The notes beneath the pieces are model-generated. The model was not told the DNA's origin. It ran no database searches and worked only from the letters and a program-made list of their open reading frames with translations. From Paracoccus sp. (in: a-proteobacteria) (lineage in GTDB: Bacteria; Pseudomonadota; Alphaproteobacteria; Rhodobacterales; Rhodobacteraceae), in contig NZ_JAUNTJ010000023.1 of NCBI RefSeq assembly GCF_030538755.1, positions 1 to 45,332 on the forward strand: a DNA stretch of 45,332 bases, given 5' to 3'. Numbering within the stretch: position 1 is the first letter of the stretch; the number at the start of each line of letters is the position of its first letter. A program made the position numbers and the translations under genes. This document shows, piece after piece, positions 26,665 to 45,332 of the stretch.

Positions 26665-26740
26665 GACATGCTTCCTCGGCAGGGCTTGCCATCGATGATA
26701 GCACGTTTCCACCCCGCGACCAGAGGCAGCTTGCGCCGGG

Positions 26741-27202
26741 TCAGAAAGCGTCAGGCCGCAATTCGCGCGCCATATGGTCCAGCACGGCATTCACGAATTT
26801 CGGCTCGCGTCCCTCGGGGAAAAACGCCTCGGCCAGCCGCACATATTCGGTGATGACCACCTTGGGCGGAGTCGCCGGGGTCACAAGTTCGGCCCCTGCC
26901 GCCCGGAACAGGGCGCGCAGCACCGGGTCGATGCGGTCGATGGGCCATTTGGCGACCAGCGCGTGATCCGTGGCCTTGTCCACCTTGGATTGCCAGGTGA
27001 CGGCATCATCGACCAGACGGCGGAACAGATTGGAATCGGCTTCGGGCGAAGGGGCATCGTCGTCTTCGACGCCGATGCGCCAATCCTCGAACTCGCGCAT
27101 CACGCGGTCGGCGGATATGCCCGCGGCTTCCATCTGGAACAGGGCCTGCACGGCATACAGCCGCGCGGCTGCGCTGCGGGCGCGTTTGTCGGTCGGGGTC
27201 AT
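26741..27202 (-). CDS. nusB: Transcription antitermination factor NusB
   Basis: A 153-residue all-helical RNA-binding protein. It has the arginine-rich N-terminus KRARSAAARLYAVQALFQME and the conserved C-terminal half WPIDRIDPVLRALFRAAGAEL, PPKVVITEYVRLAEAF and EPKFVNAVLDHMAREL. It binds boxA RNA with S10 (NusE) during rRNA transcription. Its ATG overlaps the ribH stop by 4 bases (ATGA), so it is translated with the riboflavin genes, the usual alphaproteobacterial order. Confidence 0.96.
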   Translation of the reverse strand: MTPTDKRARSAAARLYAVQALFQMEAAGISADRVMREFEDWRIGVEDDDAPSPEADSNLFRRLVDDAVTWQSKVDKATDHALVAKWPIDRIDPVLRALFRAAGAELVTPATPPKVVITEYVRLAEAFFPEGREPKFVNAVLDHMARELRPDAF

Positions 27203-27750
27203 ACCGCGTTCCCCCCGTCGATGGCACCAGCCAGCCGCACCGGGTCGTGATCGGCGCGCAGCACCTCGCGCGCGGGGCGGGCGGTCCAGCGCCGTTGCAG
27301 GGCGATCAGGTGCAGCGCGGCAGCGGCAGCGCCGCCGCCCTTGTTCTGCCCGGCGGGATCGGCCCGCACCTCGGCCTGCGTGACGTTTTCCACCGTCAGA
27401 ATGCCGTTGCCGATGGCATGGCCTTGCAGCCCCAGCTCCATCAACCCGCGCGAGCTGTCATTGCAAACCGTATCATAATGCGTCGTCTCGCCCCGGATGA
27501 CACAGCCAAGCGCGACAAAGCCGTGATAATCGGCATGGCGCGCGGCCAGCCCGATGGCGGGCGGAATTTCCAGCGCGCCCGGCACCTGAACCACATCACA
27601 GACCGCCCCCGCCTGGGCTGCCACCGCCTGCGCACCGGCCACCAGATCAGCGGCAATCGCCTTGTAATAGGGCGCCACCACGATCAGCAGCCGCACCGGG
27701 CTGTCGAAACGCGGCAGGTCAAGCTGGTGATGTTCGATGCTGGCGGCCAT
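27199..27750 (-). CDS. ribH: 6,7-dimethyl-8-ribityllumazine synthase
   Basis: A 183-residue protein of the lumazine synthase family. It contains VAPYYKAIAADLVAGA, VPGALEIPPAIG, ALGCVIRGETTHYDTVCNDSSRGLMELGL (with the catalytic histidine) and IGNGILTVENVTQAEVRA. It condenses 3,4-dihydroxy-2-butanone 4-phosphate with the ribitylamino-pyrimidine. It is somewhat longer than usual at the C-terminus (RPAREVLRADHDPVRLAGAIDGGNAV). It starts 3 bases after the ribB stop and overlaps nusB. Confidence 0.96.
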   Translation of the reverse strand: MAASIEHHQLDLPRFDSPVRLLIVVAPYYKAIAADLVAGAQAVAAQAGAVCDVVQVPGALEIPPAIGLAARHADYHGFVALGCVIRGETTHYDTVCNDSSRGLMELGLQGHAIGNGILTVENVTQAEVRADPAGQNKGGGAAAAALHLIALQRRWTARPAREVLRADHDPVRLAGAIDGGNAV

Positions 27751-27753
27751 GGC

Positions 27754-28878
27754 TTATTCCTTGGGAATCGGACGGGTTGAATGGATCGAAAGCCCGTAGG
27801 CGTCAAGCCCGACAACCTTCACCGGGGCGGAATTGGTCAGCAGGATCAGATCCGAAAGGCCCAGCGCCGACAGGATCTGCGCCCCCAGCCCATAGTTGCG
27901 CAGCGTATGCGCCCCCACCTCTCCGGGACGGGGCAACGCGGGCGACAGATCGCGGATCAGCACCACGACGCCGCGCCCCTCACGCGCGATTTCCTCCATC
28001 GCGATGGACAGATCACCGGCAGCTTCGCGCCCGATACCCAGCACATCATGCAGCGGGTCCAGCGCGTGCATCCGCACCAGCATCGGGCCGGGGGCGGTCA
28101 GGCTGCCCTTTATCAGCACGATATGTTCGGCCCCCTGCGTCACGTCGCTGAACACCCGCATATCCCATTCGCCGCCAAAGCGGCTGGTCACGGTGGATTG
28201 CGACTGCTGGCTGACCAGATTGTCATGGCGGCGGCGATAGGAAATCAGGTCGCTGATGGTGCCGATCTTCAGCCCGTGCTTTTGCGCAAAGCCGATCAGG
28301 TCGGGCAGCCGGGCCATGGTGCCGTCCTCGTTCATGATCTCGCAGATCACGCCCGAGGGGTTCAGCCCGGCCAGCCGCGCAATATCCACCGCCGCTTCGG
28401 TATGGCCCGCGCGCACCAGAACCCCGCCATCGCGCGCCCGCAGCGGGAACACATGGCCCGGCGAGGCAATATCGGCGGCCCCGCGGGTCGGGTCGATGGC
28501 CACGGAAATGGTGCGCGCCCGGTCATGGGCGGAAATGCCGGTGGTCACGCCCTCGCGCGCCTCGATCGACAGGGTAAAGGCGGTCTCGTGCCGGCTGGAG
28601 TTCTTGGACGACATCAGCGGCAGGCCAAGGGCGTCGATCCGGCTGCCCGGCATCGACAGGCAGATCAGCCCGCGCCCGTGCGTCGCCATAAAGTTGATCG
28701 CCTCGGGCGTGGCCATTTGCGCGGGGATGACCAGATCGCCTTCATTCTCGCGGTCTTCGTGATCGACCAGAATGAACATGCGTCCGTTGCGGGCATCGTT
28801 GATGATGTCTTCCACCGGCGAGATCACATCGGCCAGATCGCGCTCGACGGGACCGGGGTTTTCATACTGCATGGGCAT
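27754..28878 (-). CDS. ribB: 3,4-dihydroxy-2-butanone 4-phosphate synthase with degenerate GTP cyclohydrolase II domain
   Basis: A 374-residue protein. Residues 15-215 are an intact RibB domain: DHEDRENEGDL (acidic metal site), SRHETAFTLSIEAREGVTTGISAHDRARTI and GHVFPLRARDGGVLVRAGHTEAAVD. Residues 220-374 have the length and fold pattern of RibA, but the zinc motif is lost. Aligned with ECLTGD...RCDCG, the three cysteines become D274, E285 and A287. The C-terminal half therefore should not open GTP, and a true RibA must be encoded elsewhere. This bifunctional-looking form is known in alphaproteobacteria. It lies between ribE and ribH in the same operon. Confidence 0.94.
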   Translation of the reverse strand: MPMQYENPGPVERDLADVISPVEDIINDARNGRMFILVDHEDRENEGDLVIPAQMATPEAINFMATHGRGLICLSMPGSRIDALGLPLMSSKNSSRHETAFTLSIEAREGVTTGISAHDRARTISVAIDPTRGAADIASPGHVFPLRARDGGVLVRAGHTEAAVDIARLAGLNPSGVICEIMNEDGTMARLPDLIGFAQKHGLKIGTISDLISYRRRHDNLVSQQSQSTVTSRFGGEWDMRVFSDVTQGAEHIVLIKGSLTAPGPMLVRMHALDPLHDVLGIGREAAGDLSIAMEEIAREGRGVVVLIRDLSPALPRPGEVGAHTLRNYGLGAQILSALGLSDLILLTNSAPVKVVGLDAYGLSIHSTRPIPKE

Positions 28879-28911
28879 ATCCCTTAAAAATGCGTCGGCC
28901 AGACGACCCGT

Positions 28912-29499
28912 TCAGCCAAACTCGGCCAGCCGCGCAACATAGCGGGCCAGCGTGTCGATTTCCAGATTGACCGCATCGCCCGCCTGCGCCGCGCCCCAGT
29001 TCGTCACCTCACGCGTGTGTGGGATCAGGTTGATGCCAAAGCGCGTGCCGTCCACCTCGTTCACGGTCAGCGAGGTGCCGTTCAGCGCGACAGAGCCTTT
29101 GGGCGCAATGAACCGCGCCAGTGCGGCGGGGGCATCGAAGGTCAGGCGCAGGCTGTCGCCCTCGGGGCAGAGGTCCACGATCCGCGCCACGCCATCGACA
29201 TGGCCGCTGACGATATGGCCGCCCAGTTCGTCGCCCACACGCAGCGCGCGTTCCAGATTGACGCGCTGCCCGCTGGCCCAGGTGCCCAGATTGGTTTTCG
29301 ACAGGGTTTCGGCGGAAATATCAACGTCGAACCAGTCGTCGCCCTTGGCCACCACGGTCAGACACACCCCGTCGCAGGCGATCGAGGCGCCCAGATCGAC
29401 GCCCGCCATATCATAGGCGCAGCCAATCCGCGCCCGCATATCGCCACGCATCTCGACCGTGCGCAGCGTGCCAATATCGGTGATGATCCCGGTGAACAT
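28912..29499 (-). CDS. ribE: Riboflavin synthase (alpha chain)
   Basis: A 195-residue protein made of two lumazine-binding barrels. It starts MFTGIITDIGTL and carries SIACDGVCLTVV and GGHIVSGHVDGVARI (barrel 1), then GSVALNGTSLTVNEV and GINLIPHTREVTNWG (barrel 2). It dismutates two lumazine molecules to riboflavin. ATG 29499 follows AAGGGGA; an upstream in-frame ATG at 29517 is less likely. It heads the ribE-ribB-ribH-nusB unit. No FMN riboswitch was recognised in front. Confidence 0.95.
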   Translation of the reverse strand: MFTGIITDIGTLRTVEMRGDMRARIGCAYDMAGVDLGASIACDGVCLTVVAKGDDWFDVDISAETLSKTNLGTWASGQRVNLERALRVGDELGGHIVSGHVDGVARIVDLCPEGDSLRLTFDAPAALARFIAPKGSVALNGTSLTVNEVDGTRFGINLIPHTREVTNWGAAQAGDAVNLEIDTLARYVARLAEFG

Positions 29500-29790
29500 G
29501 CCGTCCCCTTTTCCCATTCAGGCAGGTGCCCTATTGGCCTAGGCCATCGCCCGCGCGGGCGCAAGCAGGTGAAAACGCCCCTGCCCTGCCGAAAAGACAG
29601 GTTGAGTCTCTGATGATTATGGGTTTTTTAAATATTATGTGAGATCTGGCGAATATGTGCAGAGGAATAAGGCGCTGATCGCCCCCTGTGTGCGAAATTT
29701 GCTAACCGCGCCCCGCCATCGTCATCTGTCGGCAGGGCATCTTGCCCTTGGCCATGTTGCCGGGGTGTCGTTGTCATTTGCGGGCAGGTC
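29500..29790. other. 291-base divergent gap between ribE and kpsS
   Basis: No gene is seen. It must hold the promoters of ribE (leftward) and kpsS (rightward). AT-rich DNA at 29610-29645 (including TATTAT at 29633-29638) is the likely promoter area, though no well-spaced hexamer pair is clear. A small hairpin AGGGCA-TCT-TGCCCT lies at 29734-29748 in the kpsS leader. Confidence 0.4.
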
Positions 29791-31125
29791 ATGTTCGAAA
29801 AGGTCGTTCGCCTCTCAGATGCCGCCAATCCGCAGGGTCAGCCCCCGGCGCAGCGGCACTTTCTGATGTTGCAGGGGCCGCACGGGCCGTTCTTTGACCG
29901 GCTGGGCAGGTTGCTGCGCGATGCGGGCGCGACGGTGTGGCGGGTCGGCTTCAACGCGGGCGATTCCTTTTTCTGGCGTGACCGGGCGCATTTCATTCCC
30001 TTTACCGATCCGATTGCCGCATGGCCCGCCCGGCTGGCGCAGATCGTGCGCGACAAGGGGATCACCGACATCGTGCTGTATGGCGACGTGCGCCCGGCCC
30101 ATGCGGCGGCGCGTGAACTGGCCGGCCGGCGCGGCCTGCGCCTGCATGTGTTCGAGGAAGGCTATCTGCGCCCCTTCTGGATCAGCTATGAACGCGGCGG
30201 TTCAAACGGGCATTCCGCGCTGATGAACATCCCCATCACCGAAATGCGCGCCACGCTGGCCGATGCCGGGGACGAGATGCCGCGCCCGCCTGCGCATTGG
30301 GGCGACATGCGCGAACACAAATTCTATGGCGCGCTGTATCACTTTATGATTCTGGCCGCGAACCGGCGCTTTCGCCAGTTCCGCAGCCACCGCGCCATCC
30401 CGGTGTTCGACGAATTTCGCCTGCATCTGCGCCGCCTGATCCTGTCGCCGCTGGATGCGCTGCTGCGGGCACGGGCGGTGCGCTCGATCAACGCGGGGGG
30501 CTGGCCGTTCGTTCTGGTGCTGCTGCAACTGGAACATGACAGCAATTTTCAGGCGCATTCCCCCTTTCGGCGGCAGCGCGACTTTACCGACCTGTGTTTG
30601 CGCGAATTTGCCGCACATGCGCCGCGCCACCACCGCATCGTCTTCAAGGCCCACCCGCTAGAGGACGGGCGCGGCCGAATCGTCGCCGCCATCCGCGAAC
30701 AGGCCCATATGCTGGGTATTCAGGACCGGGTGCATTTCGTGCGCGGCGGCAAGCTGGCCTCGCTGCTGACGCAGGCGCGGTCGGTTATCACGGTCAATTC
30801 CACGGCGGCCCAGCAGGCGCTGTGGCGCGGCCTGCCGGTCAAGGCGCTTGGCCGCGCCGTCTATGGCAAGCCGGGGCTGGTCTCGGATCAGTCGCTGGCC
30901 GATTTCATCCGCCAGCCCGACCGCCCCAACCGCGAGGCATATCGCAGCTATCGCAGCTATCTGCTGCAAACCAGTCAGGTGCCGGGCGGCTTTTACGCGG
31001 CGCGTTCCCGCAACCATGCCTTGCGCATCATCAGCGATCTGATCCTGATGGATGATGACCCGTATGAGATGCTGGCAAACGGCCGGGCGACATTAAGGCA
31101 ACAATTCGCCCTCCGCGATGGATGA
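29791..31125 (+). CDS. kpsS: Capsule lipid-linker Kdo transferase (KpsS-like)
   Basis: A 444-residue cytoplasmic protein of the capsule polysaccharide synthesis family. It contains FLMLQGPHGPFFDRLGRLLRDAGATVWRVGFNAGD, VLYGDVRPAHAAA, HVFEEGYLRPFWISYERGGSNGHS, QLEHDSNFQAHSPF, VFKAHPLEDGR and VITVNSTAAQQALWRGLPVKALG. KpsS adds the first beta-Kdo to lyso-phosphatidylglycerol, the lipid linker of group 2 capsules. It is the first gene of the capsule module that lies on the opposite strand inside the riboflavin region. Confidence 0.92.
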   Translation: MFEKVVRLSDAANPQGQPPAQRHFLMLQGPHGPFFDRLGRLLRDAGATVWRVGFNAGDSFFWRDRAHFIPFTDPIAAWPARLAQIVRDKGITDIVLYGDVRPAHAAARELAGRRGLRLHVFEEGYLRPFWISYERGGSNGHSALMNIPITEMRATLADAGDEMPRPPAHWGDMREHKFYGALYHFMILAANRRFRQFRSHRAIPVFDEFRLHLRRLILSPLDALLRARAVRSINAGGWPFVLVLLQLEHDSNFQAHSPFRRQRDFTDLCLREFAAHAPRHHRIVFKAHPLEDGRGRIVAAIREQAHMLGIQDRVHFVRGGKLASLLTQARSVITVNSTAAQQALWRGLPVKALGRAVYGKPGLVSDQSLADFIRQPDRPNREAYRSYRSYLLQTSQVPGGFYAARSRNHALRIISDLILMDDDPYEMLANGRATLRQQFALRDG

Positions 31126-31232
31126 GGGGTCAAAATGGTGGCGCAGACTGACCAACTTGGGTATTTTACAACGAATTACGGCCAAAACCCGCACCCCAAG
31201 CGGGAATCACGACGGGACAGGAGATTACCGAG

Positions 31233-32360
31233 GTGAAGTTTAACCTTTCGCGCAACATGATGCGCCTTGCGGCCCTTGCCGCACTGACACTGGTTGCGGC
31301 CTGCGCGCTGCCCCGTTCTGGCCCCAACAAGAACGAGATTTTCGGCGGCGCGGTGGAACGCGGCGGCAATACCCATGTGATCTATGTGAACGATCACGTC
31401 ACCCGCGCGGCGAATTTCGCGCCGTCTTACGGCTTTTCGCGCTCGTTCCAGACGGCGGGGGCGGTTGGCGCCGATGAAATCCGCGCGGGCGACGTTCTGG
31501 GTCTGGGGATCTGGGAAAACGTCGATGACGGCCTGCTGGCCGGTCTGGGCCAAAGCGCCACGCAATTGCAGCAAATTCAGGTGGACAGCCAGGGCTATAT
31601 CTTTGTGCCCTATGCCGGGCGCGTGCGCGCGGCAGGCAGCACGCCCGAACAGTTGCGTCAGTCGATCACCTCGCGCCTGTCGGCGCAGACCCCCGATCCG
31701 CAAGTCACCGTGACCCGTATGGCGGGCGACGGCGCGACCGTTTCGGTCATGGGCAAGGTGATGAGCCAGGGCGTCTATCCCATCGAACGCCCGACCCGCA
31801 CCCTGTCGGCCATGCTGGCGCGCGCGGGCGGTGTGGCCATCGAACCCGAAATCGCCGTCGTCACGGTCAAGCGTGGCAGCGACAGTGGCCGCGTCTGGCT
31901 GCGCGATCTGTATGGCAGCAGCTCGAACGACATCGCCCTGCGCCCCGGCGACATCATTCTGGTCGAGGAAGATCAGCGCAGCTTTACCGCCCTTGGCGCG
32001 CTGGGCGGCCAGACCAAGGTGCCGCTGGGCAACGAACAGATCAACGCGGTCGAGGCGATCGCCATGGTCGGCGGCCTCAACTCGAACCTTGCCGACCCGA
32101 CCGGCGTTTTCGTGCTGCGCGACGAACCGGAATCGGTGGCCAGCCGCGTGCTGGGCAAGCCGGTCTTCGGCACGCAGCGGATCGCCTATGTGCTGGACCT
32201 GACGCGGCCCAACGGCCTGTTCCTGGCGCGCGATTTCATTGTCCGCGACAGCGACACCATCTATGTGACCGAGGCCCCCTATGTTCAGTGGAGCAAGACC
32301 CTTTCGGCCATTACCGGCAGCGCGACCACAGCAGACCGGCTGAGCAGCATCGGCAACTGA
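31233..32360 (+). CDS. Outer-membrane polysaccharide export lipoprotein (OPX/Wza family)
   Basis: A 375-residue lipoprotein starting with GTG 31233 behind GGAG. The lipobox LVAAC puts the acylated cysteine at residue 24. It has a Poly_export domain (DEIRAGDVLGLGIWENV... VDSQGYIFVPYAGRVRAAGSTPEQLRQSI) and SLBB-type repeats (TVSVMGKVMSQGVYPI and LGGQTKVPLGNEQINAVEAIAMVGGL). It forms the outer-membrane channel for capsule or exopolysaccharide. It lies 107 bases after kpsS and 5 bases before kpsC. Confidence 0.93.
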   Translation: MKFNLSRNMMRLAALAALTLVAACALPRSGPNKNEIFGGAVERGGNTHVIYVNDHVTRAANFAPSYGFSRSFQTAGAVGADEIRAGDVLGLGIWENVDDGLLAGLGQSATQLQQIQVDSQGYIFVPYAGRVRAAGSTPEQLRQSITSRLSAQTPDPQVTVTRMAGDGATVSVMGKVMSQGVYPIERPTRTLSAMLARAGGVAIEPEIAVVTVKRGSDSGRVWLRDLYGSSSNDIALRPGDIILVEEDQRSFTALGALGGQTKVPLGNEQINAVEAIAMVGGLNSNLADPTGVFVLRDEPESVASRVLGKPVFGTQRIAYVLDLTRPNGLFLARDFIVRDSDTIYVTEAPYVQWSKTLSAITGSATTADRLSSIGN

Positions 32361-32365
32361 CGCGA

Positions 32366-34360
32366 ATGCCCCTATCGTATGACGCAGCCGCCGGGGATCA
32401 TCCCCGGCGGCTGTTCGCATTCAACGGCGGTTTCTGGACCCAGCCCCGCCTGCGCCGCATCCTGACGCTGGCGGGGTGGCGGCTGACCTTTGGGCTGCCC
32501 GGCCCCGGCGATCACGTCGCGATCTGGGGGGCATCCCCCACCGCATGGCGCGGGCGCGCTGTTGCAGCGCGGCGCGGCGCGCGGATCGTCACGGTCGAGG
32601 ATGCGTTTTTGCGCTCGATCCTGCCGGGGCGTGCGCGGGGGCCGCTGGCCCGACGCGGGCCGATTGGCCTGTTGATTGATCCGCATGGGGTGCATTTCGA
32701 CCCTTCGCAGCCTTCGTTGATTGAAACCCTGATCCCACAAGCGGCCCCACATCGCGCCGACGCCGCCGCCGCGCTGGAACACCTGCGCGCCGCCGATCTG
32801 TCGAAATACAATGCGCACCTGCCCGACGCGCCGCTGCCCGCGCCCGGTTATGTGCTGGTGATCGACCAGACGCGCGGCGATGCCTCGCTGCGGGGGGCTG
32901 GTCGGGCACTGTTTTTGCGGATGCTGGATGCGGCGCGCGACGAACATCCCGCAGCGCGCATCGTGGTCCGCGCGCATCCCGAAACGGCCGCCGGCCTGCG
33001 CCCCGGCCATCTGACCCGCGACGATCTGCGGCCGGGCGAGGAATTTTGCGATGCGCCCGTCTCGCCATGGCGGCTGGTCGAAAACGCCCGCGCCGTCTAT
33101 GCCGTCAGTTCACAACTGGGATACGAGGCGCTGCTGGCCGGGCACCACCCCCGCCTGTTCGGCGCGCCGTTTTATGCGGGCTGGGGGCTGTCGGATGATG
33201 ATGCCGCGCCCGCCCGAGGTCAGGCTGCGCCGCAAGATCTGTTCGCCGCCAGCCACCTGCTCGCGCCGGTCTGGTATGACCCTTGCCGCGACCGGCTGAC
33301 CGATTTCCACGGCGCGCTGGATCAGATCGAAGCCGAGGCCAAGGCCTTTCGTCAGGATCGCGGCGGCCATCTGGCCTATGGGATGCGCCTGTGGAAACGC
33401 CCGGCCATCGCCAGAATCTTTGGCAACGGTGCCGGGGTGCGCTTTGCACGGCAGCCATCGGCGGCGGTGACGCTGGTCTGGGCGAACAGGGCGGAGGCCG
33501 CGCCGCAGGCGATCCGGGTCGAGGACGGTTTTCTGCGATCGCGCGGTCTGGGGGCGGCGCTGGTTCCGCCGCTGTCGCTGGTCGCGGATGACTGCGGCAT
33601 TTACTATGATCCAAGCCGGGAAAGCAGGCTGGAACGCTTGATTGCCGCAGGTCCGCCGCCCGGCGGCGCGGATCGAGCGGCCCGTCTGATCGCGCAACTG
33701 ACCAAGGCGGGGCTGAGCAAATACAACCTGTCCGCCGGCGCGCCCACTCTGCCGCCGCGCGATGGCCGCCGCATGATTCTGGTGCCCGGTCAGGTCGAGG
33801 ATGACGCCTCGATCCGCCTTGGCGCGGGGCGCGAACAAAGCAATCTGGCCCTGTTGTCACGGGTGCGGGCCGAAAACCCCGATGCGCTGGTGATTTACAA
33901 GCCCCATCCTGATGTCGAGGCGGGCCTGCGGCCCGGCCACATCCCGCCTGCGAAATTGGCTGAATTGGCCGACGTGGTGGCGGCAGGCAGTGACCCGTTA
34001 ACCCTGATCGCAGCCGTTGATGAGGTCTGGACCATCACATCCACGCTGGGCTTTGAGGCGCTGCTGCGCGGGGTGCCGGTCGTAACATTGGGCGCGCCCT
34101 TTTATGCCGGCTGGGGCCTGACGCGCGATCTTGGCCCTGTTCCCGCGCGCCGTCAGGCCCGGCCCGATCTGAACGCGCTTGCCCATGCCTGCCTGATTGC
34201 CTATCCGCGCTATTTCGACCCGATCCGTGGCCTGCCCTGCCCGCCCGAGGTCGCCATCGACCGCCTGTCTGACCCGGCCTCGTCAGTCAGCGGACCGGGC
34301 CTGAGATGGCTGGCCAAGGTTCAGGGGGCACTGGCGGGGCAAAGCTGGATCTGGCGTTAG
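32366..34360 (+). CDS. kpsC: Capsule lipid-linker Kdo transferase (KpsC-like, two tandem GT modules)
   Basis: A 664-residue protein with two related halves (about 1-330 and 340-640). Each carries a matching set: EDAFLRS / EDGFLRSRGLGAALVPPLS, LSKYN / LSKYN, VLVIDQTRGDAS / ILVPGQVEDDAS, RAHPETAAGLRPGH / KPHPDVEAGLRPGH, and GAPFYAGWGL in both. KpsC alternates beta-2,4 and beta-2,7 Kdo additions to build the capsule linker after KpsS. ATG 32366 lies 5 bases after the export protein stop; the earlier frame opening at 32288 overlaps that gene. Confidence 0.94.
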   Translation: MPLSYDAAAGDHPRRLFAFNGGFWTQPRLRRILTLAGWRLTFGLPGPGDHVAIWGASPTAWRGRAVAARRGARIVTVEDAFLRSILPGRARGPLARRGPIGLLIDPHGVHFDPSQPSLIETLIPQAAPHRADAAAALEHLRAADLSKYNAHLPDAPLPAPGYVLVIDQTRGDASLRGAGRALFLRMLDAARDEHPAARIVVRAHPETAAGLRPGHLTRDDLRPGEEFCDAPVSPWRLVENARAVYAVSSQLGYEALLAGHHPRLFGAPFYAGWGLSDDDAAPARGQAAPQDLFAASHLLAPVWYDPCRDRLTDFHGALDQIEAEAKAFRQDRGGHLAYGMRLWKRPAIARIFGNGAGVRFARQPSAAVTLVWANRAEAAPQAIRVEDGFLRSRGLGAALVPPLSLVADDCGIYYDPSRESRLERLIAAGPPPGGADRAARLIAQLTKAGLSKYNLSAGAPTLPPRDGRRMILVPGQVEDDASIRLGAGREQSNLALLSRVRAENPDALVIYKPHPDVEAGLRPGHIPPAKLAELADVVAAGSDPLTLIAAVDEVWTITSTLGFEALLRGVPVVTLGAPFYAGWGLTRDLGPVPARRQARPDLNALAHACLIAYPRYFDPIRGLPCPPEVAIDRLSDPASSVSGPGLRWLAKVQGALAGQSWIWR

Positions 34361-34424
34361 GGGGGCTGTCTGCCCCCCCGTCGCGTTCCGCGACTCCCCC
34401 CGAGGATATTTTCCGACCAAAGAT
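34360..34424 (+). repeat. Intergenic element copy A: G/C hairpins plus GAGGATATTT-N3-GACCAAAGAT
   Basis: Right after kpsC, GGGGGC (34361-34366) pairs with GCCCCC (34372-34377), and GTCGCG (34380-34385) pairs with CGCGAC (34389-34394). These are followed by GAGGATATTT-TCC-GACCAAAGAT (34402-34424). The same 10+3+10 core occurs once more in the window, inverted, at 41039-41061. Such GC-hairpin/AT-core elements are common between genes in Rhodobacteraceae and may end convergent transcripts (kpsC and ribD). Confidence 0.7.
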
Positions 34425-34429
34425 ACGGG

Positions 34430-35437
34430 TCAAGCACGGCGCCAGATTTGCATCAGGTCGGGGCCGATCTGTCGGCTTTCGGTCAGGCGATAACGCGGCG
34501 CGTCTGCCAGCCGGTGCAAATCCAGCGAGCCGAGCGCCGGACGCCCTTCGGCCCCCAGCAGCACACCGGCGCTGTAAAGCACGATCTGATCCACAACCCC
34601 GGCGTGCAGCAGGCCCGCTGCCAACTGCCCGCCGCCTTCGCACAGCACGCGAGTCAGGCCGCGCGCGCCCAGTTCGGCCATGAATGCCGCCGGGGCTCCG
34701 CCGATGTGCCACAGGGGGCCGTGGTCCGGGCCTTGCGGCGGCAGGTCTGGCAGCGGTTGGCGGGAAACGACGATGCGCACGGGCTGTTGCTGCGGGCCGA
34801 GGCCGCGCAGGTTGAGGTTGGGTCGGTCAGCGCGGGCCGTTCCGCCGCCGACCATGATCGCGTCATGGACAAGCCGCAGGGTCTGCACATGCTGGCGCGC
34901 CATTGGGCCGGTGATCCATTGGCTTTCCCCCGAAGCCGTCGCGATTCGGCCATCAAGGCTGGTCGCCAGTTTCAGCGTCAGCATCGGGCGGCCTTGGGTG
35001 ACGCGGGTCAGAAACCCGATCTGATCGGCGCGGGCAGCATCTGCGCAGACGCCCTCGGTCACAATGATCCCGGCCGCCCGCAGGCGCGCGTGGCCTTGGC
35101 CAGCGGTGCGCGGGTCCGGGTCGGTCAGCGCGGTGACGACGCGCGACACACCTGCGGCGATCAGCGCATCGGCGCAAGGCGGCGTTCGCCCGTGATGCGC
35201 GCAGGGTTCCAGCGTGACATAGGCCACCGCCCCGCGCGCCGCATCCCCGGCCTGCGCCAAAGCCATGGTTTCGGCATGAGGGCGGCCGCCCGGCTGCGTC
35301 CAGCCCCGGCCGACGACCCGGTCATTATGGACCAGCACGCAGCCGACCGCAGGGTTGGGCCAGCAATTCCCCAAGCCCCGACGCCCCAGCCGCAGCGCGT
35401 GGGCCATATGGGTCTGGTCCTGAGGCTGGACGCTCAC
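34430..35437 (-). CDS. ribD: Bifunctional riboflavin deaminase/reductase
   Basis: A 335-residue protein. The N-terminal deaminase has zinc ligands H54 and E56 (PHAETMAL) and C79, C88 ([17 protein letters not shown]). The C-terminal reductase (about 147-335) contains [44 protein letters not shown] and [15 protein letters not shown]. It performs the second and third steps from the GTP cyclohydrolase II product. Its start overlaps the nrdR stop as ATGA. It is separated from ribE-ribB-ribH by the opposite-strand capsule genes. Confidence 0.96.
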
Positions 35438-35895
35438 TCTTGGCTGCTGGGCCGCAGTTCGGCCACGAATTTATCAAAGTCGCCGGCGTCCTGGAAGTTC
35501 TTGTAAACGCTGGCAAAACGGACATAGGCGACGTTATCTATGCGCGACAGGGTTTCCATCACGATTTCCCCTATCGCCTTGGAGGGGATGTCGGTTTCAC
35601 CCGAACTTTCCAGCCGCCGCACGATCCCCGAGATCATCTGGTCGATCCGTTCCGGCTCGACCGGGCGTTTCTGCATCGCGATACGGATCGAGCGGGACAG
35701 CTTATCGCGGTCGAAATCTTCGCGCTTGCCGTTTGACTTGACCACGATCAGGTCGCGCAGTTGCACGCGCTCGTAAGTGGTAAAGCGTCCCGCGCAGGCC
35801 GGGCAAAAGCGGCGGCGGCGGATCGCGACGTTATCTTCGGCCGGGCGCGAGTCCTTTACCTGGGTGTCGATATTTCCGCAAAACGGGCAGCGCAT
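35434..35895 (-). CDS. nrdR: Ribonucleotide reductase repressor NrdR
   Basis: A 153-residue protein with a zinc ribbon (C3, C6, C31, C34 in MRCPFC...FCPAC) and an ATP-cone (about 49-139: [20 protein letters not shown]...). It represses ribonucleotide reductase genes by binding NrdR boxes according to the ATP/dATP ratio. It is first in the nrdR-ribD pair and overlaps ribD by 4 bases, a conserved arrangement in many bacteria. Confidence 0.97.
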
Positions 35896-36076
35896 CCCTT
35901 GTCCCCTGTCAGCCCCGATCCGCCACCACTATAGGCCCTGTAGCACCGCTTGGGTAGCGGGGATGCGATGCCACCAGATGCGGAGGTGCAGATTTCAACC
36001 AGATAGCGGCGTCAAAATGGTTGCTATGCGGGGCCTAACGCCCTGCTGGCGGGTCAGCCAACCCATGTCCGGTGCG

Positions 36077-37600
36077 TCAATCCGCCCCCTGTTCCGCCGC
36101 TTTGCTTGCCGGTTCGGGCAGCGCCGTGGCGCCGCCGTCATGGTCAAGCCCGATGCGCTTTTGCGTGCGTGCACCCAGTTCGCGCAGCATTTCGACCTGC
36201 CGGATGACATTGCCCTGCCCGCGTGTCAGCCGGTCCATCGCCTGCCCATGCGCGCGCGTGGCACCGTCCAGTGCCTTGCCCACCGCCTCAAGCGATTCGA
36301 CGAAACCGGCAACCTTGTCATAAACCGCACCCGCCCGGCGGGCGATTTCCAACGCATTGTTTTCGCGCCTTTCCACCGTCCAGATATGGTCCACAGTGCG
36401 CAGCGTCAGCATCAGCGTTGTGGGCGTCGCCAGTCCGATGCGGCAATCCAGCGCAAAGCTGGCCAGATCGGGATCTGCGCGCAATGCCTCGGAAAAGGCA
36501 CCTTCGATGGGGATGAACATCAGCACATAATCGACCGAGGCATCGTCCAGCCGGTCATATCCCTTGGCCGATAGCGCGGTGATGTGCGCCCGGATCGCGG
36601 CAACGTGCCGTCGCAGCGCGGCATCGCGGTCGGCCGGTTCGGCGGCATTGACCGATTGTTCATAGGCATTCAGCGACACCTTGCTGTCGATCACCAACAC
36701 CTTGCCGCGCGGCATCCGAACGATCACATCCGGGCGCCAGCCCTTGCCGTCTTCGTCCCGGAAAGCAGTCTGAAGGTCGTAATGTCGCCCCTCTTCAAGG
36801 CCCGAATCTTCCAGAATTCGTTCCAGAATCATCTCGCCCCAGGCACCCTGGCGCTGTTTTTCGCCTTTCAGCGCGCGGGTCAGTTCGACGGCCTCGCGGC
36901 TGATCGCCTCGGACCGGCGATGCAGGCCCTCGATCTGTTCGCGCAGGCGTGCGCCTTCTTCGTCCAGCACCTTGTTTCGGGTTTGCAATTCCGTCTGAAA
37001 CCGATGCACCTGATCGCGGAACGGCACCAGCAGGGCAGACAATTGTTCCGATTGCACGCGCCGCATATCCTCGCCCTGCGAACGCAAGGTTTCCTGCGAC
37101 ATCAGGCGGAACTGCCCGGTCATTTCCTCGCGCAGATCGCGCAAGGTGGCGATGTCGCGGCCCATTGCCTCGCGGTCTTTTGCGGCGCTTAACCGCGCCT
37201 CGGCCAGATCGCGTTCCAGCTTGGCCGCAGCATCGCGCGCGCGAAACAGCGCATCGGACAGGCCGTCGCGTTCTTCGGTCAGGCGCGACAACGCATCGGC
37301 ACGTTCATCCAGCCGGACATCCAATTGCCCTGCCCGCAGCGCCAGATCCCGCACCGCCTGTCGTTCCCGATCCAGTTGCGGTTCCAGCGCCGCAATCCGT
37401 TCGCCAAGCCGCTGCACCTCCCCGGCCTGATGACGGGCGTCGATTTCAGCACGCGCGGCCTCCGCCAGTGTCGCCGCAAGCCGCCGCCGCGTCAGCAGAT
37501 GCAGCACCAGCAGGACCACCAGCACCGCCACAACACCCGCAAGCAGCCGTGCCAGGGCATCTGCATCGGTCAAGAACGAGTTAAGCCAATCGGTCTGCAT
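36077..37600 (-). CDS. rmuC: DNA recombination protein RmuC
   Basis: A 507-residue protein. An N-terminal membrane helix (about 18-38) is followed by a long coiled coil (40-260), then the RmuC nuclease-like core: LKGEKQRQGAWGEMILERILEDSGLEEGRHY, GWRPDVIVRMPRGKVLVIDSKVSLNAYE, VDYVLMFIPIEGAFSEAL and LATPTTLMLTLRTVDHIW. The E...D...S-K pattern resembles PD-(D/E)XK nucleases. RmuC limits inversions at short inverted repeats in E. coli. ATG 37600 is preferred over the upstream frame opening at 37690, which would put a terminator inside the gene. Confidence 0.94.
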   Translation of the reverse strand: MQTDWLNSFLTDADALARLLAGVVAVLVVLLVLHLLTRRRLAATLAEAARAEIDARHQAGEVQRLGERIAALEPQLDRERQAVRDLALRAGQLDVRLDERADALSRLTEERDGLSDALFRARDAAAKLERDLAEARLSAAKDREAMGRDIATLRDLREEMTGQFRLMSQETLRSQGEDMRRVQSEQLSALLVPFRDQVHRFQTELQTRNKVLDEEGARLREQIEGLHRRSEAISREAVELTRALKGEKQRQGAWGEMILERILEDSGLEEGRHYDLQTAFRDEDGKGWRPDVIVRMPRGKVLVIDSKVSLNAYEQSVNAAEPADRDAALRRHVAAIRAHITALSAKGYDRLDDASVDYVLMFIPIEGAFSEALRADPDLASFALDCRIGLATPTTLMLTLRTVDHIWTVERRENNALEIARRAGAVYDKVAGFVESLEAVGKALDGATRAHGQAMDRLTRGQGNVIRQVEMLRELGARTQKRIGLDHDGGATALPEPASKAAEQGAD

Positions 37601-37674
37601 CACAACCCACAGTTTGTTCCCCTTTCGTGCCGGAACATCCCGTCTGGCGCAACCCGTTGTATAGCATTTTAACG

Positions 37675-37704
37675 AAAAAAGCCGCCGCACAGGGGTGCGA
37701 CGGC
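37675..37704 (-). terminator. Terminator of the VPLPA-CTERM gene
   Basis: On the minus strand GCCGTCGCAC and GTGCGGCGGC form a 10-bp stem (one G-U) with a CCCT loop (37681-37704), followed by UUUUUU (37675-37680). It lies 22 bases past the stop of the gene at 37727. Confidence 0.88.
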
Positions 37705-37726
37705 CTTCTTCAGAATGTGAATGCGA

Positions 37727-38326
37727 TCAGGCGCGCTGACGACGACGCAGGGCGGCAACACCACCCAGCGCGCCCAGCAGCAGCAGGCCCGTTGCGGGCA
37801 GCGGAACCGGTGCCACGCGCACGCTGTCGATGTCAAAGCTGCCAGCGCCGCGCAGGTTGCCGGTGTCGAAATGGACGAACTTCATCGCGTCCCAGATACC
37901 GTCAAAGGTAAAGGTCGCGGTCGGGTTCGCATTGCTGATCGGGGCTTCGTTAACCAAAGTCCACGAATTCGGATTCGACAGGTTGCCGACGTAAACCAGC
38001 GCCTGTTCGACCCAGCCAGCGCGGTTGTTAAAGGTCACTTCGGCCACGGTCGAGGGCGACTTGAAGCTGGTGCCGAAGGTGAAGATCACCTCGTCGAAAT
38101 TCCCGATTTCAAAGAACTGCCCATCTGTCGCGCCCAGCGCGTTCAGCCCGTTCGCACGACCATTCGCGGTCGAGCGGCCAGCAGCCTGATTGTCGTCGTT
38201 ATAGGTCACAGTGGTGGCATAACCATCGTTATAGCCGCCCGGACCAACGGTCACGACAGCCGCACCTGCGGCACCCGCAACCAGCGTTGCGGCCAGCGCC
38301 GCACCCAAAGCCAGTGTATTTTTCAT
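37727..38326 (-). CDS. VPLPA-CTERM-sorted surface protein
   Basis: A 199-residue exported protein. It has a signal peptide (residues 1-22, AGAAGAA), a beta-rich middle (about 25-165, FEIGNFDEVIFTFGTSF..., NPTATFTFDGIWDAMKFVHFD) and a C-terminal sorting signal PVPLPATGLLLLGALGGVAALRRRQRA, which consists of the VPLPA motif, a hydrophobic helix and a basic tail. Such proteins are cut by an exosortase of the rhodobacteral type and moved to the surface or exopolysaccharide. No exosortase is in the window. ATG 38326 is 9 bases from AGGAG; ATG 38332 is only 3. The function of the middle domain is unknown. Confidence 0.85.
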   Translation of the reverse strand: MKNTLALGAALAATLVAGAAGAAVVTVGPGGYNDGYATTVTYNDDNQAAGRSTANGRANGLNALGATDGQFFEIGNFDEVIFTFGTSFKSPSTVAEVTFNNRAGWVEQALVYVGNLSNPNSWTLVNEAPISNANPTATFTFDGIWDAMKFVHFDTGNLRGAGSFDIDSVRVAPVPLPATGLLLLGALGGVAALRRRQRA

Positions 38327-38513
38327 ACTCATTAACTCCTGCAAAAGCGGCAATAGCCGTCTCACCCTTAAATACCCCATGCTCACGCCGTGCAAAAGGT
38401 AAAACTTTATAAAAGGTTAAATTTTTACCGCATAAAAATCAGCGCCTTAACCAGATTCAGCGCCTAAAAGTTGAATGAATAAATCATATAATCGCGCTAA
38501 AATTGCGTAACCC
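38327..38513. other. AT-rich promoter region of the VPLPA-CTERM gene
   Basis: This 187-base region is much richer in A+T than its surroundings. It has a direct repeat TCAGCGCCT at 38439-38447 and 38457-38465, spaced 18 bases, and two AAAAGGT stretches (from 38396 and 38412). TATAAA occurs on the minus strand at 38406-38411 without a good -35. The repeats may be activator sites. Confidence 0.4.
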
Positions 38514-38937
38514 TCAGGCTAAATCACCTGCCTGAAACGATATATTCTGCATAAAGCGCAAAATTTCCCGGCCATAAACCTGCTCATCCCGAATCGAGAC
38601 ATTCGCCGCTGCCAGCCAATCCACAATCGAGTGATCGCGCGCCCCTGTCAGCCGCATATCCCAACCCCGGAAATACCGTTCCGCCAAGGGACCGCTGCCC
38701 AGAATAACGATGTCCTGATGTCTGGGGTCCGCGTTGAGCGAGGAAACAACCTCTCTCAACGCGCTTTCCGCGCCCTCAAGCCATTGAAAGAACATACCGT
38801 CTTCGCAATGCAGCAGGCCGGTCAGCCCCAAAAGGCTGTTGCGGGCACGGGCCACCCGCGCAATATCGTCGATCCCCGCCTTATCCCAAGGATCAACGGC
38901 GAGGCTGCGGTATAAAAAATAACACAGCCTCTGATTG

Positions 38938-38948
<11 letters not shown>
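38514..38948 (-). CDS. BLUF-domain blue-light photoreceptor
   Basis: A 144-residue single-domain BLUF protein. Against AppA the key residues are all present: Tyr13 in YRSLA (AppA Y21), Asn37 in [10 protein letters not shown] (N45), Gln55 in FFQWLEG (Q63), and Trp96 and Met98 in GWDM (W104, M106). It should therefore bind FAD and undergo the normal red-shift photocycle. A helical tail (110-144) may contact an output partner. The only suitable start is TTG 38948, which lies inside the end of rpoD (11-base overlap) with no clear ribosome-binding site, so translation probably depends on rpoD. Confidence 0.9.
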
Positions 38949-40905
<1,957 letters not shown>

Positions 40906-41038
40906 CAGCGGCTCCTTCTGAGGGGGCAAAGCGATTCGGCGCGACCCGAATCACAAGGTAAGGAAAGCCAAGATATAGGGCGCGCGCGGCCCGAATCAAA
41001 GGGGGACGCAAAAGAATGATTCGCCCCTGATTCGCCCC
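40906..41038 (-). promoter_or_regulatory. rpoD leader and promoter with GATTCG repeats
   Basis: On the minus strand TTGATT (40994-40999) and TATATC (40972-40977) are 16 bases apart and point to rpoD. Around them are repeated GATTCG-type motifs. TGATTCGCCCC is tandemly duplicated with no gap (41017-41027, 41028-41038). CCGAATC recurs at 40946-40952 and 40992-40997. GATTCGG-N6-CCGAATC forms an inverted repeat at 40933-40952. This is unusual for an rpoD leader and may be protein binding sites. Confidence 0.5.
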
Positions 41039-41109
41039 ATCTTTGGTCCTCAAATATCCTCTGGGGCGTGGGGGGCGGGGGAAGAGCCCACCCGCGCCTT
41101 GCCCCGCCA
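41039..41109 (-). repeat. Intergenic element copy B (inverted relative to copy A)
   Basis: Reading the minus strand, GAGGATATTT-GAG-GACCAAAGAT occupies 41039-41061, identical to the core at 34402-34424 except for the three middle bases, and is flanked by G/C-rich stretches (41062-41109). It shows that DNA of the alphaproteobacterial genome continues at least to about 41,100. Confidence 0.65.
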
Positions 41110-41121
41110 CCCCCCCCCCCC
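41110..41121. other. Run of 12 C: likely join between two genomes
   Basis: Left of this run lies rhodobacteral DNA (rpoD, the shared intergenic element). Right of it all genes use actinobacterial-style codons (CTC, GTC, GAG, CGC heavy), carry actinobacterial family members and Microbacteriaceae-like repeats. A homopolymer is a common place for mis-assembly. No integrase, tRNA end, direct repeat or transposase marks the border. Gap 40906-41264 holds otherwise only the rpoD leader and this join. Confidence 0.75.
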
Positions 41122-41264
41122 GGGGCACCTCCACCCGTCACCTCTCACGACACACTCAGAACGAGAACCGACGACACACCCGAGGGGATCACAGACGTGT
41201 GCCAGCATCGTGCGCCAGCATCGACCAACATTCCGAACACCCCACATCAGACAACGGAGTCGAC

Positions 41265-41462
41265 ATGTTTGGCACTGAGCTCCTCCTGCAGGTCTTGTTG
41301 TTCTCGCTCCTTGGCATCGCGGCCCTTGTCGCGGGCGTCTCCGCACTCACTCGAACCCTCGGAGCCACATCGAGGCGGCAGGGCAACGCCCATCAAGGAA
41401 TCGCCCCAGCATCCCCGGCCGGCGACCCACCACCCTCTGATGCCACACGCGAGCGCTCGTGA
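41265..41462 (+). CDS. Small single-helix membrane protein (hypothetical)
   Basis: A possible 65-residue protein. It starts at ATG 41265 behind CGGAG, has one membrane helix (about residues 5-28, LLLQVLLFSLLGIAALVAGVSAL) and ends in a polar tail. The frame opens upstream at 41043 across the join, but that part is not coding. No family is recognised. Confidence 0.4.
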   Translation: MFGTELLLQVLLFSLLGIAALVAGVSALTRTLGATSRRQGNAHQGIAPASPAGDPPPSDATRERS

Positions 41463-41501
41463 CCGGGCCGCATGCGAACGGAAGACACACCATCGGCTTG
41501 A

Positions 41502-42116
41502 ATGAGCGATCCGCATCATGTTGACTCGCGCGGCGCACCCTGCCCGGTATGCGCACGCGCGATGCTGTGCGGAGCTCGACCCGCACTCCCCTCCCGCGCG
41601 CCCCCGCGCATCCGGCCCGCCAGCCGTCAATGCGCGCAAGTTCGCTCGACCGGCGACGCGGACGGCCACGACGCACGGCGAGACCCACTCTTCGCCGACT
41701 CGACATCGCCGACCGCGCCGAGCGCTGCCGATGGCGCGGCGACCGTCGGAATCGGCTCGGTGCTCCTCCTCACCGAGGTACTCGCGAAGCCCCTCCGCGA
41801 CGACCCCGCTTCACGCGAGGTCGCCTCGCTCACGAGCCTGTTGAGCCGCATCGAGTTGCGCGCGCTCGACACCGACACGGCCACGCTCGCCCTCGAGTTC
41901 GCCGTGTCGTATCGACTGCGCGCGGCCGATGCGACGCACGTGGCGACCGCCGTCGCCGGCGGCGCCACCATGTTCCTGACCAACAATCGCCGCGATTTCA
42001 CTCGGCACACCACCGAGATCGACATCGTGTCCCCCGACGAGCTGCCCGACCCAGCCGAGCTCGCGCGCCGCTCGGGAACCACCACCATCGACTCCCCAAT
42101 AAACCCCCACGGCTAA
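41502..42116 (+). pseudogene. PIN-domain (VapC-like) protein with damaged or missing N-terminal part
   Basis: The C-terminal 115 residues fit a PIN ribonuclease-like domain. They include VGIGSVLLLTEVLAKPLRDD, a middle helical part, RIELRALDTDTATLALEFAVSYRLRAADATHVATAVAGGATMFLTNNRRDF, and the expected acidic residue in AADATH. The N-terminal 75 residues are arginine/proline-rich and do not give the usual LD(S/T)xV first strand with its catalytic Asp; only FADST may be a relic. A frameshift or truncation before residue 80 is likely. No antitoxin gene is seen upstream. Confidence 0.5.
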
Positions 42117-42159
42117 GCTGAAGGAACGTTGCGCCCCGATCGCGCGCGAAGGGAGCCGA

Positions 42160-42711
42160 GTGACCGCCACGTCAGAGCCGCCCCTCGACGCGAGCCCCGG
42201 CGACGACGAGCGCATCACGGCCGCCCCCGCCGGCTCGACGACGACGCCGCTCGGCGACGCGATCGACCCCGATAACTTCACGCCTCGGCTCGTCTCACTG
42301 CTGTCGAACAAGCTCGTGTGGCGCGAGTCACGCCTGCTGCGCGAGCGCTTCGATCTCGGCACGAACGACTGGCGCATCATCTCGGCGCTCGGCACGAGGC
42401 CCGGTGCGACCGTCACCGAGATCGCCGACTTCATCGCCGTCAACAAGGCGATCGTCTCGAAGAGCGTGGCGATCCTGCTCGAGCGCGGCCTCGTCGCGTC
42501 GTCGCCGCTGGCCGGGCGCTCGCGCCCGCTCTACCTCACGGCCGAGGGCGCAGCCATGCACGCGCAGATGCTGCCCATCTCGATGAGCGGGCAGCACTAC
42601 ATCCTCGACGGCCTCGACGCCGGCGAAGTCGAGCGCTTCAACGCGCTGCTGCGCGCGATGCTCGCCCGCACCGACGAGCCGGGGTTCCGCGGCGACGGCA
42701 GCGACAGCTGA
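42160..42711 (+). CDS. MarR-family transcriptional regulator
   Basis: A 183-residue protein from GTG 42160 behind GGGAG. After a disordered N-terminus (1-40) comes a MarR winged helix: LVSLLSNKLVWRESRLLRERFDLGTNDWRIISALGTRPGATVTEIADFIAVNKAIVSKSVAILLERGLV, the wing SPLAGRSRPLYLTAEGAAMH, and the dimerisation helix near the C-terminus. Its target is unknown. Codon use (GAC, CTC, ATC, GTC) is that of the actinobacterial segment. Confidence 0.88.
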   Translation: MTATSEPPLDASPGDDERITAAPAGSTTTPLGDAIDPDNFTPRLVSLLSNKLVWRESRLLRERFDLGTNDWRIISALGTRPGATVTEIADFIAVNKAIVSKSVAILLERGLVASSPLAGRSRPLYLTAEGAAMHAQMLPISMSGQHYILDGLDAGEVERFNALLRAMLARTDEPGFRGDGSDS

Positions 42712-42825
42712 GCGCAGCCGGCTCCGCTCCCCAACCGGACATTCACTCCCCGAGCTCAGCTCGCCCATGTCCGCCCTGGTCGTTGATTCGACGCGCGCAC
42801 GCACGCGTCGCGGGCAACGTGCCGA

Positions 42826-43254
42826 TCAGCGCTGCCGCTCGCGCACAGCCCGAAGGTGCACGTCGGTCGGCTCGACCACGTGGGCGGCGTACTCGGGGTG
42901 CTTCGGCAGCCACTTCGCGACGTAGGGGCACACGGGCACGATGCGGTAGCCGCGGGCGACCACGTCGTCGACGGCGTCCCGCACGAGTACCGACGCGAGG
43001 CCCCGGCCGCCGTAGGCCTCGTCGACGCCCGTGTGGAACAGCACGCGGTGCACGGGGCCGCCGCCGTCGGGCTCGACGTCGACGTACGATTCCTCGCCGA
43101 TCACGGCCTCGCCGCGGGCACCGTCATCGCTGCCAGCGGCGGGGTCGATTCGGGCGGCCTCGTCGGTTCCGGCGCCGCCGGGCCGGCGATCAACGAGCAC
43201 GTAGCGCGATTCGTCGGCCCGGTGCTGCACCTCGAAGCGGTCGTCGTCGTTCAT
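42826..43254 (-). CDS. GNAT-type acetyltransferase, NATD1/YjdJ subfamily
   Basis: A 142-residue protein with the short GNAT core GPVHRVLFHTGVDEAYGGRGLASVLVRDAVDDVVARGYRIVPVCPYVAKWLPKHPEYA, including the acetyl-CoA loop (Y-GG-RGLA) and the CPYV-x-KW-hP motif typical of the YjdJ-like subfamily. A 30-residue insert (about 25-50) interrupts the N-terminal strands. The substrate is unknown. It is followed on the same strand by no gene in the segment; the pirin gene lies 44 bases upstream. Confidence 0.85.
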   Translation of the reverse strand: MNDDDRFEVQHRADESRYVLVDRRPGGAGTDEAARIDPAAGSDDGARGEAVIGEESYVDVEPDGGGPVHRVLFHTGVDEAYGGRGLASVLVRDAVDDVVARGYRIVPVCPYVAKWLPKHPEYAAHVVEPTDVHLRAVRERQR

Positions 43255-43298
43255 CGTGTCGCTCCTCGCGGTCGTGTTCGTGGTCGGCGTCGCCGTCG

Positions 43299-44345
43299 TC
43301 AGCCATCGGATGGGGTCGCGGCGGCCCCGCCTCGATCGCGTGGGCGCAGCCGCACGGTCGGCAGCTCGGGGGCCGGCAGCGGCAACGGCTGCCCCTCGGG
43401 GAACGGGCCGAAGAGCGCGGCGTCACGGTCGTCGCCCGCACCCGCATCCGGTGCCCCACCGCGCGCGTCGACGCCGATCTCTGCCTGATAGCGGCGCCGG
43501 AACTCGACGATCTCGTCGTGGGTGCGGCCCACGAAGTTCCACCACATCACGATCTGCTCGTCGAAGGGCACGCCGCCGAGCAGGATGATGCGGGCGCCGC
43601 CGTGCCCGGCGGTGAGCGTGAGCGACGCGGCACCGGGCGGCGCAGAGCCGAGCCCGCGGTGGGCGACGGGCGTGCCATCGACGGCCACCGTGCCGGTCAC
43701 GGCGAGCACCGCGTGCTCGAAATCGGCTCGCACATCGAGCGTCACCGATCGATCTGGATCGATGCGCAGTTCGGCGCCGAGCAGCTCACCCGTGCGCGTG
43801 TCGACGGGTGAACGCGAGCCGAGCAGCTCGCCGATGAACACGCGCGCCGTGAGCCCCGGTGCCTCGACCGGGTCGGGCACGAAGTGGGTGAGGCCGGGCG
43901 CGCTGAACCGCGTCGCGTCGGGCAGGGCGAACCAGAGCTGCACCCCGTGCAACACCTCGGTGTCGGGGGTGCTGAACTCGGAGTGCGTGATGCCCCGCCC
44001 CGCGAACATGAGGTTAAGCTCGCCGGGGCGCACCACGGCGGCGTTGCCGGCCGAGTCGAGGTGGTCGATGTCGCCCGTGAACAGCCACGACACCGTCGCG
44101 AGACCCGTGTGCGGGTGGCGGGGCACGCGCATCCCGCCCGTCGCCGCGACGTGGTCGGGGCCGTAGTGGTCGAGGAAACACCACGCGCCGACCATCGATC
44201 GCTCCCGCTGCGGCAGCGTGCGATGCACGGTCATGGCGCGGGGCCCGCCGAGCGGCACGAGGCGCGGTTCGAGCACCTCGACCGCGTTGCACGGTCGGCC
44301 GCGTTCGAGCACCGCCTCGTCGGGGTGCCGATCGAGATTGCTCAC
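43299..44345 (-). CDS. Pirin-family protein
   Basis: A 348-residue bicupin. It starts at GTG 44345 (SNLDRHPDEAVLERG). The N-terminal cupin has the iron ligands of pirin in PRHPHTGLATVSWLF, DHLDSAG and AGRGITHSEFS. The C-terminal cupin follows from about 180 (ELRIDPDRSVTLDVRADFEHAVLAV, HGGARIILLGG, MWWNFVGRTHDEI). Bacterial pirins can act as quercetinases or as regulators. The open frame runs upstream to 44726 through repeats and a broken AhpD-like gene that belongs to something else. Confidence 0.92.
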   Translation of the reverse strand: MSNLDRHPDEAVLERGRPCNAVEVLEPRLVPLGGPRAMTVHRTLPQRERSMVGAWCFLDHYGPDHVAATGGMRVPRHPHTGLATVSWLFTGDIDHLDSAGNAAVVRPGELNLMFAGRGITHSEFSTPDTEVLHGVQLWFALPDATRFSAPGLTHFVPDPVEAPGLTARVFIGELLGSRSPVDTRTGELLGAELRIDPDRSVTLDVRADFEHAVLAVTGTVAVDGTPVAHRGLGSAPPGAASLTLTAGHGGARIILLGGVPFDEQIVMWWNFVGRTHDEIVEFRRRYQAEIGVDARGGAPDAGAGDDRDAALFGPFPEGQPLPLPAPELPTVRLRPRDRGGAAATPSDG

Positions 44346-44439
44346 GGCACCACCCTGCCATCGATGCCGCGCGGACGCACCGGATGGCGGCTGAGGATCG
44401 AGACGCGGCCGCGCGCGTTGATCGCCACCGCCACCCACT

Positions 44440-44549
44440 CGGCTGCTGCGAGTGCAGGTCGAGGCGAACGCGCATCCGTTGAGCTGCGACGCGCGCACCG
44501 CGATCAATTCGGCCTCGGCGGCCGAGAACGCCTCGGCCGCCTTCCAGCC
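44440..44549 (-). pseudogene. AhpD/carboxymuconolactone decarboxylase-like remnant, frameshifted
   Basis: On the minus strand FSAAEAELIAVRASQLNGCAF matches the core of alkylhydroperoxidase D-like proteins, whose next residues should be C-L-D-x-H. One base is missing at about 44465-44471, and after it the reading resumes in the next frame as LDLHSQQ. The fragment is cut at its 5' side by the repeat starting at 44547. It is only about 37 codons long, so it is a relic rather than a gene. Confidence 0.6.
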
Positions 44550-44836
44550 TCGGCTCCTTCGTCGCTCGGCCAGCGACGAGGACCTCGCTCGGTCGGCGAG
44601 ACGCCCGGGCAGCTCGACCTGCGCACGAGGGGCGCTCCGCCCGAGCACGTGCGTTGTGGTGTGTGGTTCTCGGCGTGTCGCGCAGTTTTGTGCACGACAC
44701 GCCGAGGAACACACACCACAACGCACGCGGGGCCTCGGCTCCTTCGTCGCTCGGCCAGCGACGCCTCCGACGGTCGAGCGAGCGGAGCGAGACGAGACCT
44801 CCCGGGGGCCTCGGCTCCTTCGTCGCTCGACCGGCG
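44547..44836. repeat. Threefold direct repeat (32, 32 and 29 bases)
   Basis: A 32-base sequence at 44547-44578 is repeated exactly at 44732-44763, and its first 20-odd bases recur with two changes at 44808-44836. The shared core contains CTCGGCTCCTTCGTCGCTCG. Such sequences are scattered between genes in some Microbacteriaceae. One copy cuts the AhpD-like remnant, and the other two flank the inverted repeat at 44649-44726 on its right. Confidence 0.8.
44649..44726. repeat. 32-bp near-perfect inverted repeat (long hairpin)
   Basis: The left arm 44649-44680 and right arm 44695-44726 match at 30 of 32 positions around a 14-base loop (44681-44694). Each arm contains the GTGTGTG-type stretch and the CGGCGTGTCG end next to the loop. 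No T-run follows, so it is not a simple terminator. The shape suggests a palindromic repeat family or the end of a miniature mobile element. Confidence 0.85.
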
Positions 44837-44850
44837 GTGTCGCGCCGCCG

Positions 44851-45332
<482 letters not shown>

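Follow-up and report, generated by a model that had tools for sequence, protein, structure and literature searches.

The 45,332-base stretch analysed here (hereafter the window), which is the complete contig C29 (NZ_JAUNTJ010000023.1) of genome G000, is almost certainly an assembly chimera of a Paracoccus-like chromosome and an actinobacterial tail, and its junction is then not a biological feature. Two distant lineages meet in it at a sharp border, the true continuation of the chromosome lies elsewhere in the same assembly and is broken at the matching point, and the join was not found in the genus relatives searched. The genome comprises 3,013,277 bases (3.01 Mb) spread over 50 contigs; its listed completeness is 86.81% and its listed contamination 0.49%. 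The original prediction had placed an abrupt change from alphaproteobacterial to actinobacterial DNA at a poly-C run, and we found that homology and a 5-mer score both switch there, near 41,110-41,123. The contig is divided as follows:

1..41,109: Paracoccus-like chromosomal part (five blocks collinear with the genus relative G018, up to 41,074; rpoD 84.5% identical to Paracoccus ferrooxidans)
41,110..41,123: run of 12 C and most likely border of the two genomes (end of G018 homology, alignment of an intergenic element, log-odds peak)
41,124..45,332: foreign actinobacterial tail up to the contig end, probably from Microbacteriaceae (homology and composition)

The Paracoccus-like part of the contig

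The left side carries the following features next to the border:

36,077..37,690, minus strand: rmuC-like gene near rpoD (PF02646, 1.2e-97)
38,938..40,929, minus strand: rpoD, primary sigma factor (Sigma70 regions 1.1, 1.2, ner, 2, 3 and 4 all present)
41,037..41,077, plus strand: copy of an intergenic element dispersed in the genus, with a G-run/C-run stretch after it (at least 19 further matches in its own genome)

The rpoD gene is whole in the profile search, and it probably starts at an ATG near 40,905. Its DNA is closest to that of P. ferrooxidans, with four more Paracoccus entries following in rank; judged by this similarity, the host is Paracoccus or a near relative of Paracoccus. The order and orientation of rpoD and rmuC are the same in the window and in P. 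ferrooxidans pFER4 (CP038202.1). Two ORFs separate them in the window and a single gene does so in the annotated pFER4, where rpoD lies between that gene and the adjacent DNA primase gene. Among the genus relatives the nearest is G018, which shares five collinear blocks with the window at 86.6-90.8% identity. Counting one extra 598-bp match of 68% on the opposite strand, the G018 coverage comes to 33,221 bases within the initial 41,074 and to none within the final 4,258. The rhodobacteral nature claimed for the left side, rpoD included, is thus upheld by both the rpoD identity and the collinearity. Most of 3,166-11,441 (about 8 kb) is missing from the collinear stretch of G018; its composition is native, and its genes, as named from their translations, presumably include those of a tct-type transporter and of a two-component system, besides further metabolic genes. 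Another left-side stretch, compared with plasmids, gave mixed matches that were largely alphaproteobacterial.

The intergenic element (CATCTTTGGTCCTCAAATATCC) has at least 19 more matches in its own genome, all overlapping 41,037-41,077 (40 of 184 candidates scored), and no match in the plasmid records searched. The recurrence of this element at about 34.4 kb, which the original prediction had pointed out, was borne out, that copy being recognised by eye. Directly after the element, a G/C stem of the GGGGGGCGAAGCGCCCCC type stands in five of the seven own copies displayed, on either strand, and the element looks, by its sequence, like a terminator-type repeat. A fold of the stem at the border is predicted, yet it is no better than that of shuffles (z -0.87; 36 of 200 fold equally well), so that the stem can only be conjectured to have caused the break in the assembly.

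Position of the border and composition

The run of 12 C at 41,110-41,121 is the sole such run within the window and arises in 3 of 100 shuffles of it. Since own copies of the element carry the G/C stem, and one of them aligns as far as 41,116 (78% identity), the C-rich stretch up to the run may still be native. We place the border between the genomes most likely at 41,110-41,123, and less probably at 41,075-41,109.

Composition was compared on both sides, as had been suggested, by a 5-mer log-odds score that contrasts Paracoccus-like with Microbacterium-group DNA and that, in leave-one-locus-out controls, was correct in 65/65 and 50/50 2-kb chunks. All 20 2-kb windows from 1 to 40,000 score positive, as do the two 500-bp windows from 40,001 to 41,000. 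The score falls to -7 for 41,001-41,500, which contains the border, and is clearly negative in all seven 500-bp windows of 41,501-45,000, so that the left reads as Paracoccus-like and the right as Microbacterium-group-like. Summed along the contig, it reaches its maximum at 41,123 and is almost flat across 41,060-41,140. The G+C content is 0.63 at 40,500-40,999 vs 0.69-0.75 from 41,250 onward; native DNA at 32.5-35.5 kb also attains 0.70-0.71, and therefore G+C by itself is not diagnostic of the tail.

Besides the border, three further places in the genome have a run of at least 12 C or G: C3:51-69 (L159; 50 bases from a contig end), C34:1008-1021 (L160) and C13:14556-14567 (L161, 1557-1568). 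The DNA around all three scores Paracoccus-like. The C run by itself was accordingly dismissed as a marker of foreign joins, the three other such runs sitting in DNA of native composition.

The rpoD-dnaG adjacency and contig C44

The original prediction had stated that dnaG, the usual upstream neighbour of rpoD, was missing. It is indeed absent from the window, but we found it on contig C44 of the same genome, whose final base (24,388 of 24,388) lies 146 bp inside the dnaG 3' end. Among 60 genomes searched besides G000, three in which rpoD was not placed were excluded (two with no match, one with an element-only match), and in the other 57, all of the genus, dnaG adjoins rpoD at 58 of 58 rpoD places, with gaps between the aligned ends of 26-247 bp (median 152). 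The homology of C29 with G018 ends at 41,074, and the G018 dnaG end lies 23 bp beyond (L022, 5,766 to 5,789), while C44 aligns with G018 through its final base, within dnaG and without foreign DNA. The broken ends of C29 and C44 thus oppose each other across about 168 bp of G018 (L022, 5,767-5,934), which on these alignments has the look of an assembly gap. Because dnaG and rpoD are normally adjacent and C44 ends in dnaG, the 4.2 kb extra on C29 is foreign to the locus.

The actinobacterial tail

The tail has the following genes and repeats:

41,502..42,116, plus strand: possibly decayed ORF that retains part of a PIN domain (PF01850, 1.9e-9, profile positions 31-116 of 120)
42,160..42,711, plus strand: MarR-family regulator (PF12802, 1.6e-9; 60% amino-acid identity over 149 aa in the Microbacterium marinilacus genome, L151)
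42,826..43,254, minus strand: GNAT-like acetyltransferase (PF14542, 3.4e-22)
43,299..44,345, minus strand: pirin family protein (PF02678, 8.4e-28)
44,436..44,537, minus strand: possible remnant of a CMD/AhpD-type gene (PF02627, E 2.8e-4, 34 aa, under the curated cut-off)
44,547..44,839: 32-nt repeat in three copies and a palindrome with 37-nt arms (44,648-44,727), from the repeat search
44,851..45,332, minus strand: LigM-type vanillate/3-O-methylgallate O-demethylase, C-terminal third, cut by the contig end (NF047885, 2.8e-87; PDB 5x1i)

The acetyltransferase and LigM-like genes that had been named on this side are both present. The LigM-type fragment is the C-terminal 159 aa (NF047885 positions 305-460 of 461), and its score stays under the whole-protein cut-off because the protein is partial. 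The putative CMD/AhpD-type remnant sits between the pirin and LigM-type genes, beside the repeats.

Genome-level searches of the tail took in 16 actinobacterial genomes, then 398 from the Microbacterium family and 366 from the genus Microbacterium; in these last two sets, one or two candidates were scored for each genome. The LigM-type DNA is 88% identical over 467 bp to M. marinilacus and 86% to M. suaedae (L031 and L036 genomes), and the MarR and pirin genes are 75% and 74% identical in DNA to M. marinilacus. Such gene-length matches (86-88% for the LigM-type part, about 75% for pirin and MarR) agree with the actinobacterial origin that had been proposed for the right side, and from 41,501 onward the composition too is of the actinobacterial kind. 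No source at species-level identity was found, the LigM-type match being the best among the matches listed from the three genome sets. Identity in the pirin region is at most 77% among the matches listed, and none of the matches listed is informative for the first kilobase of the tail, where the PIN remnant lies.

By these similarities the source family is probably Microbacteriaceae. The family is uncertain because the PF14542-pirin pair, present in Microbacterium loci L036 and L061, is common to other actinobacterial loci as well, because the top-scoring match of the tail is a Streptomyces genome, over the acetyltransferase-pirin stretch, and because the whole tail was compared at genome level with the 16 actinobacterial genomes and the Microbacterium family only. 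Pirin matches Streptomyces, Jiangella and others besides Microbacterium; of 93 pirin loci found, 80 were kept, and 79 of these are in records with actinobacterial titles, the remaining one being titled Acidobacteriaceae. WhiB, the sole actinobacterial marker examined, was not found in G000, and this marker thus gave no sign of a second foreign contig.

Alternative origins of the tail

A recent genuine transfer would have inserted actinobacterial DNA between rpoD and dnaG, possibly deleting the 3' end of dnaG, and such an event, if true, would split a pair that is adjacent in all 57 genus relatives with both genes placed. The tail is joined to rpoD within one contig, and on sequence alone an insertion is conceivable; we nevertheless regard it as very improbable. 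C29 ends at 45,332 in foreign DNA and C44 follows G018 to its final base inside dnaG, so that neither contig shows the far edge of an insert. Loss of the dnaG end would damage an essential gene. The tail also retains its actinobacterial composition. The original prediction had described the border as lacking an integrase, att site, tRNA or transposase, and our ORF, tRNA and repeat scans found none: no mobility gene (integrase, transposase) among the five to seven scanned ORFs of a tail only 4.2 kb long, no tRNA at the border, the only one of the window being at 23,865, and no repeat crossing the border among the best repeats of 40,900-45,332 (direct families, 20 of 27; inverted pairs, 25 of 31). 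Actinobacterial genes beside rpoD in a relative would have spoken for transfer; in a search of 124 further genus genomes, with two candidates per genome scored, every match to the tail stayed at or below 93 bp, short of gene length, and such matches were confined to 37 of the genomes. A genomic island was rejected, as these scans gave no mobility genes or border repeats, C44 ends inside dnaG, and a second border, which might lie beyond the contig end, was not seen.

Still less probable is that the Paracoccus-like host carries an actinobacterial segment on a plasmid or phage. Some plasmids do have pirin, acetyltransferase and LigM-type genes, and a pirin-like stretch occurs in one unannotated phage record; however, no plasmid or phage record was found to span 80% of the tail, which led us to discard this origin. 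The 67 plasmid records that match the tail do so at 60-80% identity, and the best 12 of the 67 reach no more than 22% of its length. No replication, mobilisation or phage structural gene turned up among those five to seven ORFs, and six tail proteins gave no phage family besides a pirin one.

Discussion

The original prediction had offered a chimeric contig or a mis-binned join as the simplest explanation. The chimera stood, with dnaG found on C44 and a tail without gene-length matches in the genus; mis-binning of separate contigs did not, and C29 is a misassembly within one contig. We suggest that the chromosome has rpoD beside dnaG and that the assembly would have broken off within the short spacer separating the two genes, perhaps because of the G/C-run stem. 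The rpoD-side end would then have been joined at the C run, by the assembler or through chimeric reads, to 4.2 kb of DNA from an actinobacterium, presumably one in the same sample, and the dnaG-side end would have become the terminus of the separate contig C44. The run of 12 C is shorter than an ordinary assembly k-mer and too short for an ordinary overlap, so that by itself it would not account for the join.

The value of the finding is one of data hygiene only, and nothing biological is to be inferred from the junction. Left in place, the tail would credit a Paracoccus-like genome with a false LigM-type part, pirin and MarR regulator, and would mimic a transfer between phyla beside a core gene. 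Since the listed contamination fails to reveal it, synteny or gene-by-gene checks are needed for tails of this kind.

Chimeric contigs that arise by misassembly are described in the GUNC paper (PMC8201837) as a relatively rare error class of metagenome-assembled genomes. C29 resembles this error class in having two sources in one contig, an abrupt change of lineage and no mobile-element border found; it differs in that its join sits at a run of 12 C and in being known from sequence alone. The tail resembles the acetyltransferase-pirin neighbourhood of Microbacterium (L036, L061) in also pairing a PF14542-type acetyltransferase with pirin, whereas, among the loci compared, MarR, acetyltransferase, pirin and LigM-type genes stand together only in the window's own. 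With the dnaG-rpoD-rmuC locus of Paracoccus, as in P. ferrooxidans pFER4, the window shares the retained order and orientation of rpoD and rmuC, and it departs from that locus in having actinobacterial DNA in the place of dnaG, which lies instead at the end of C44.
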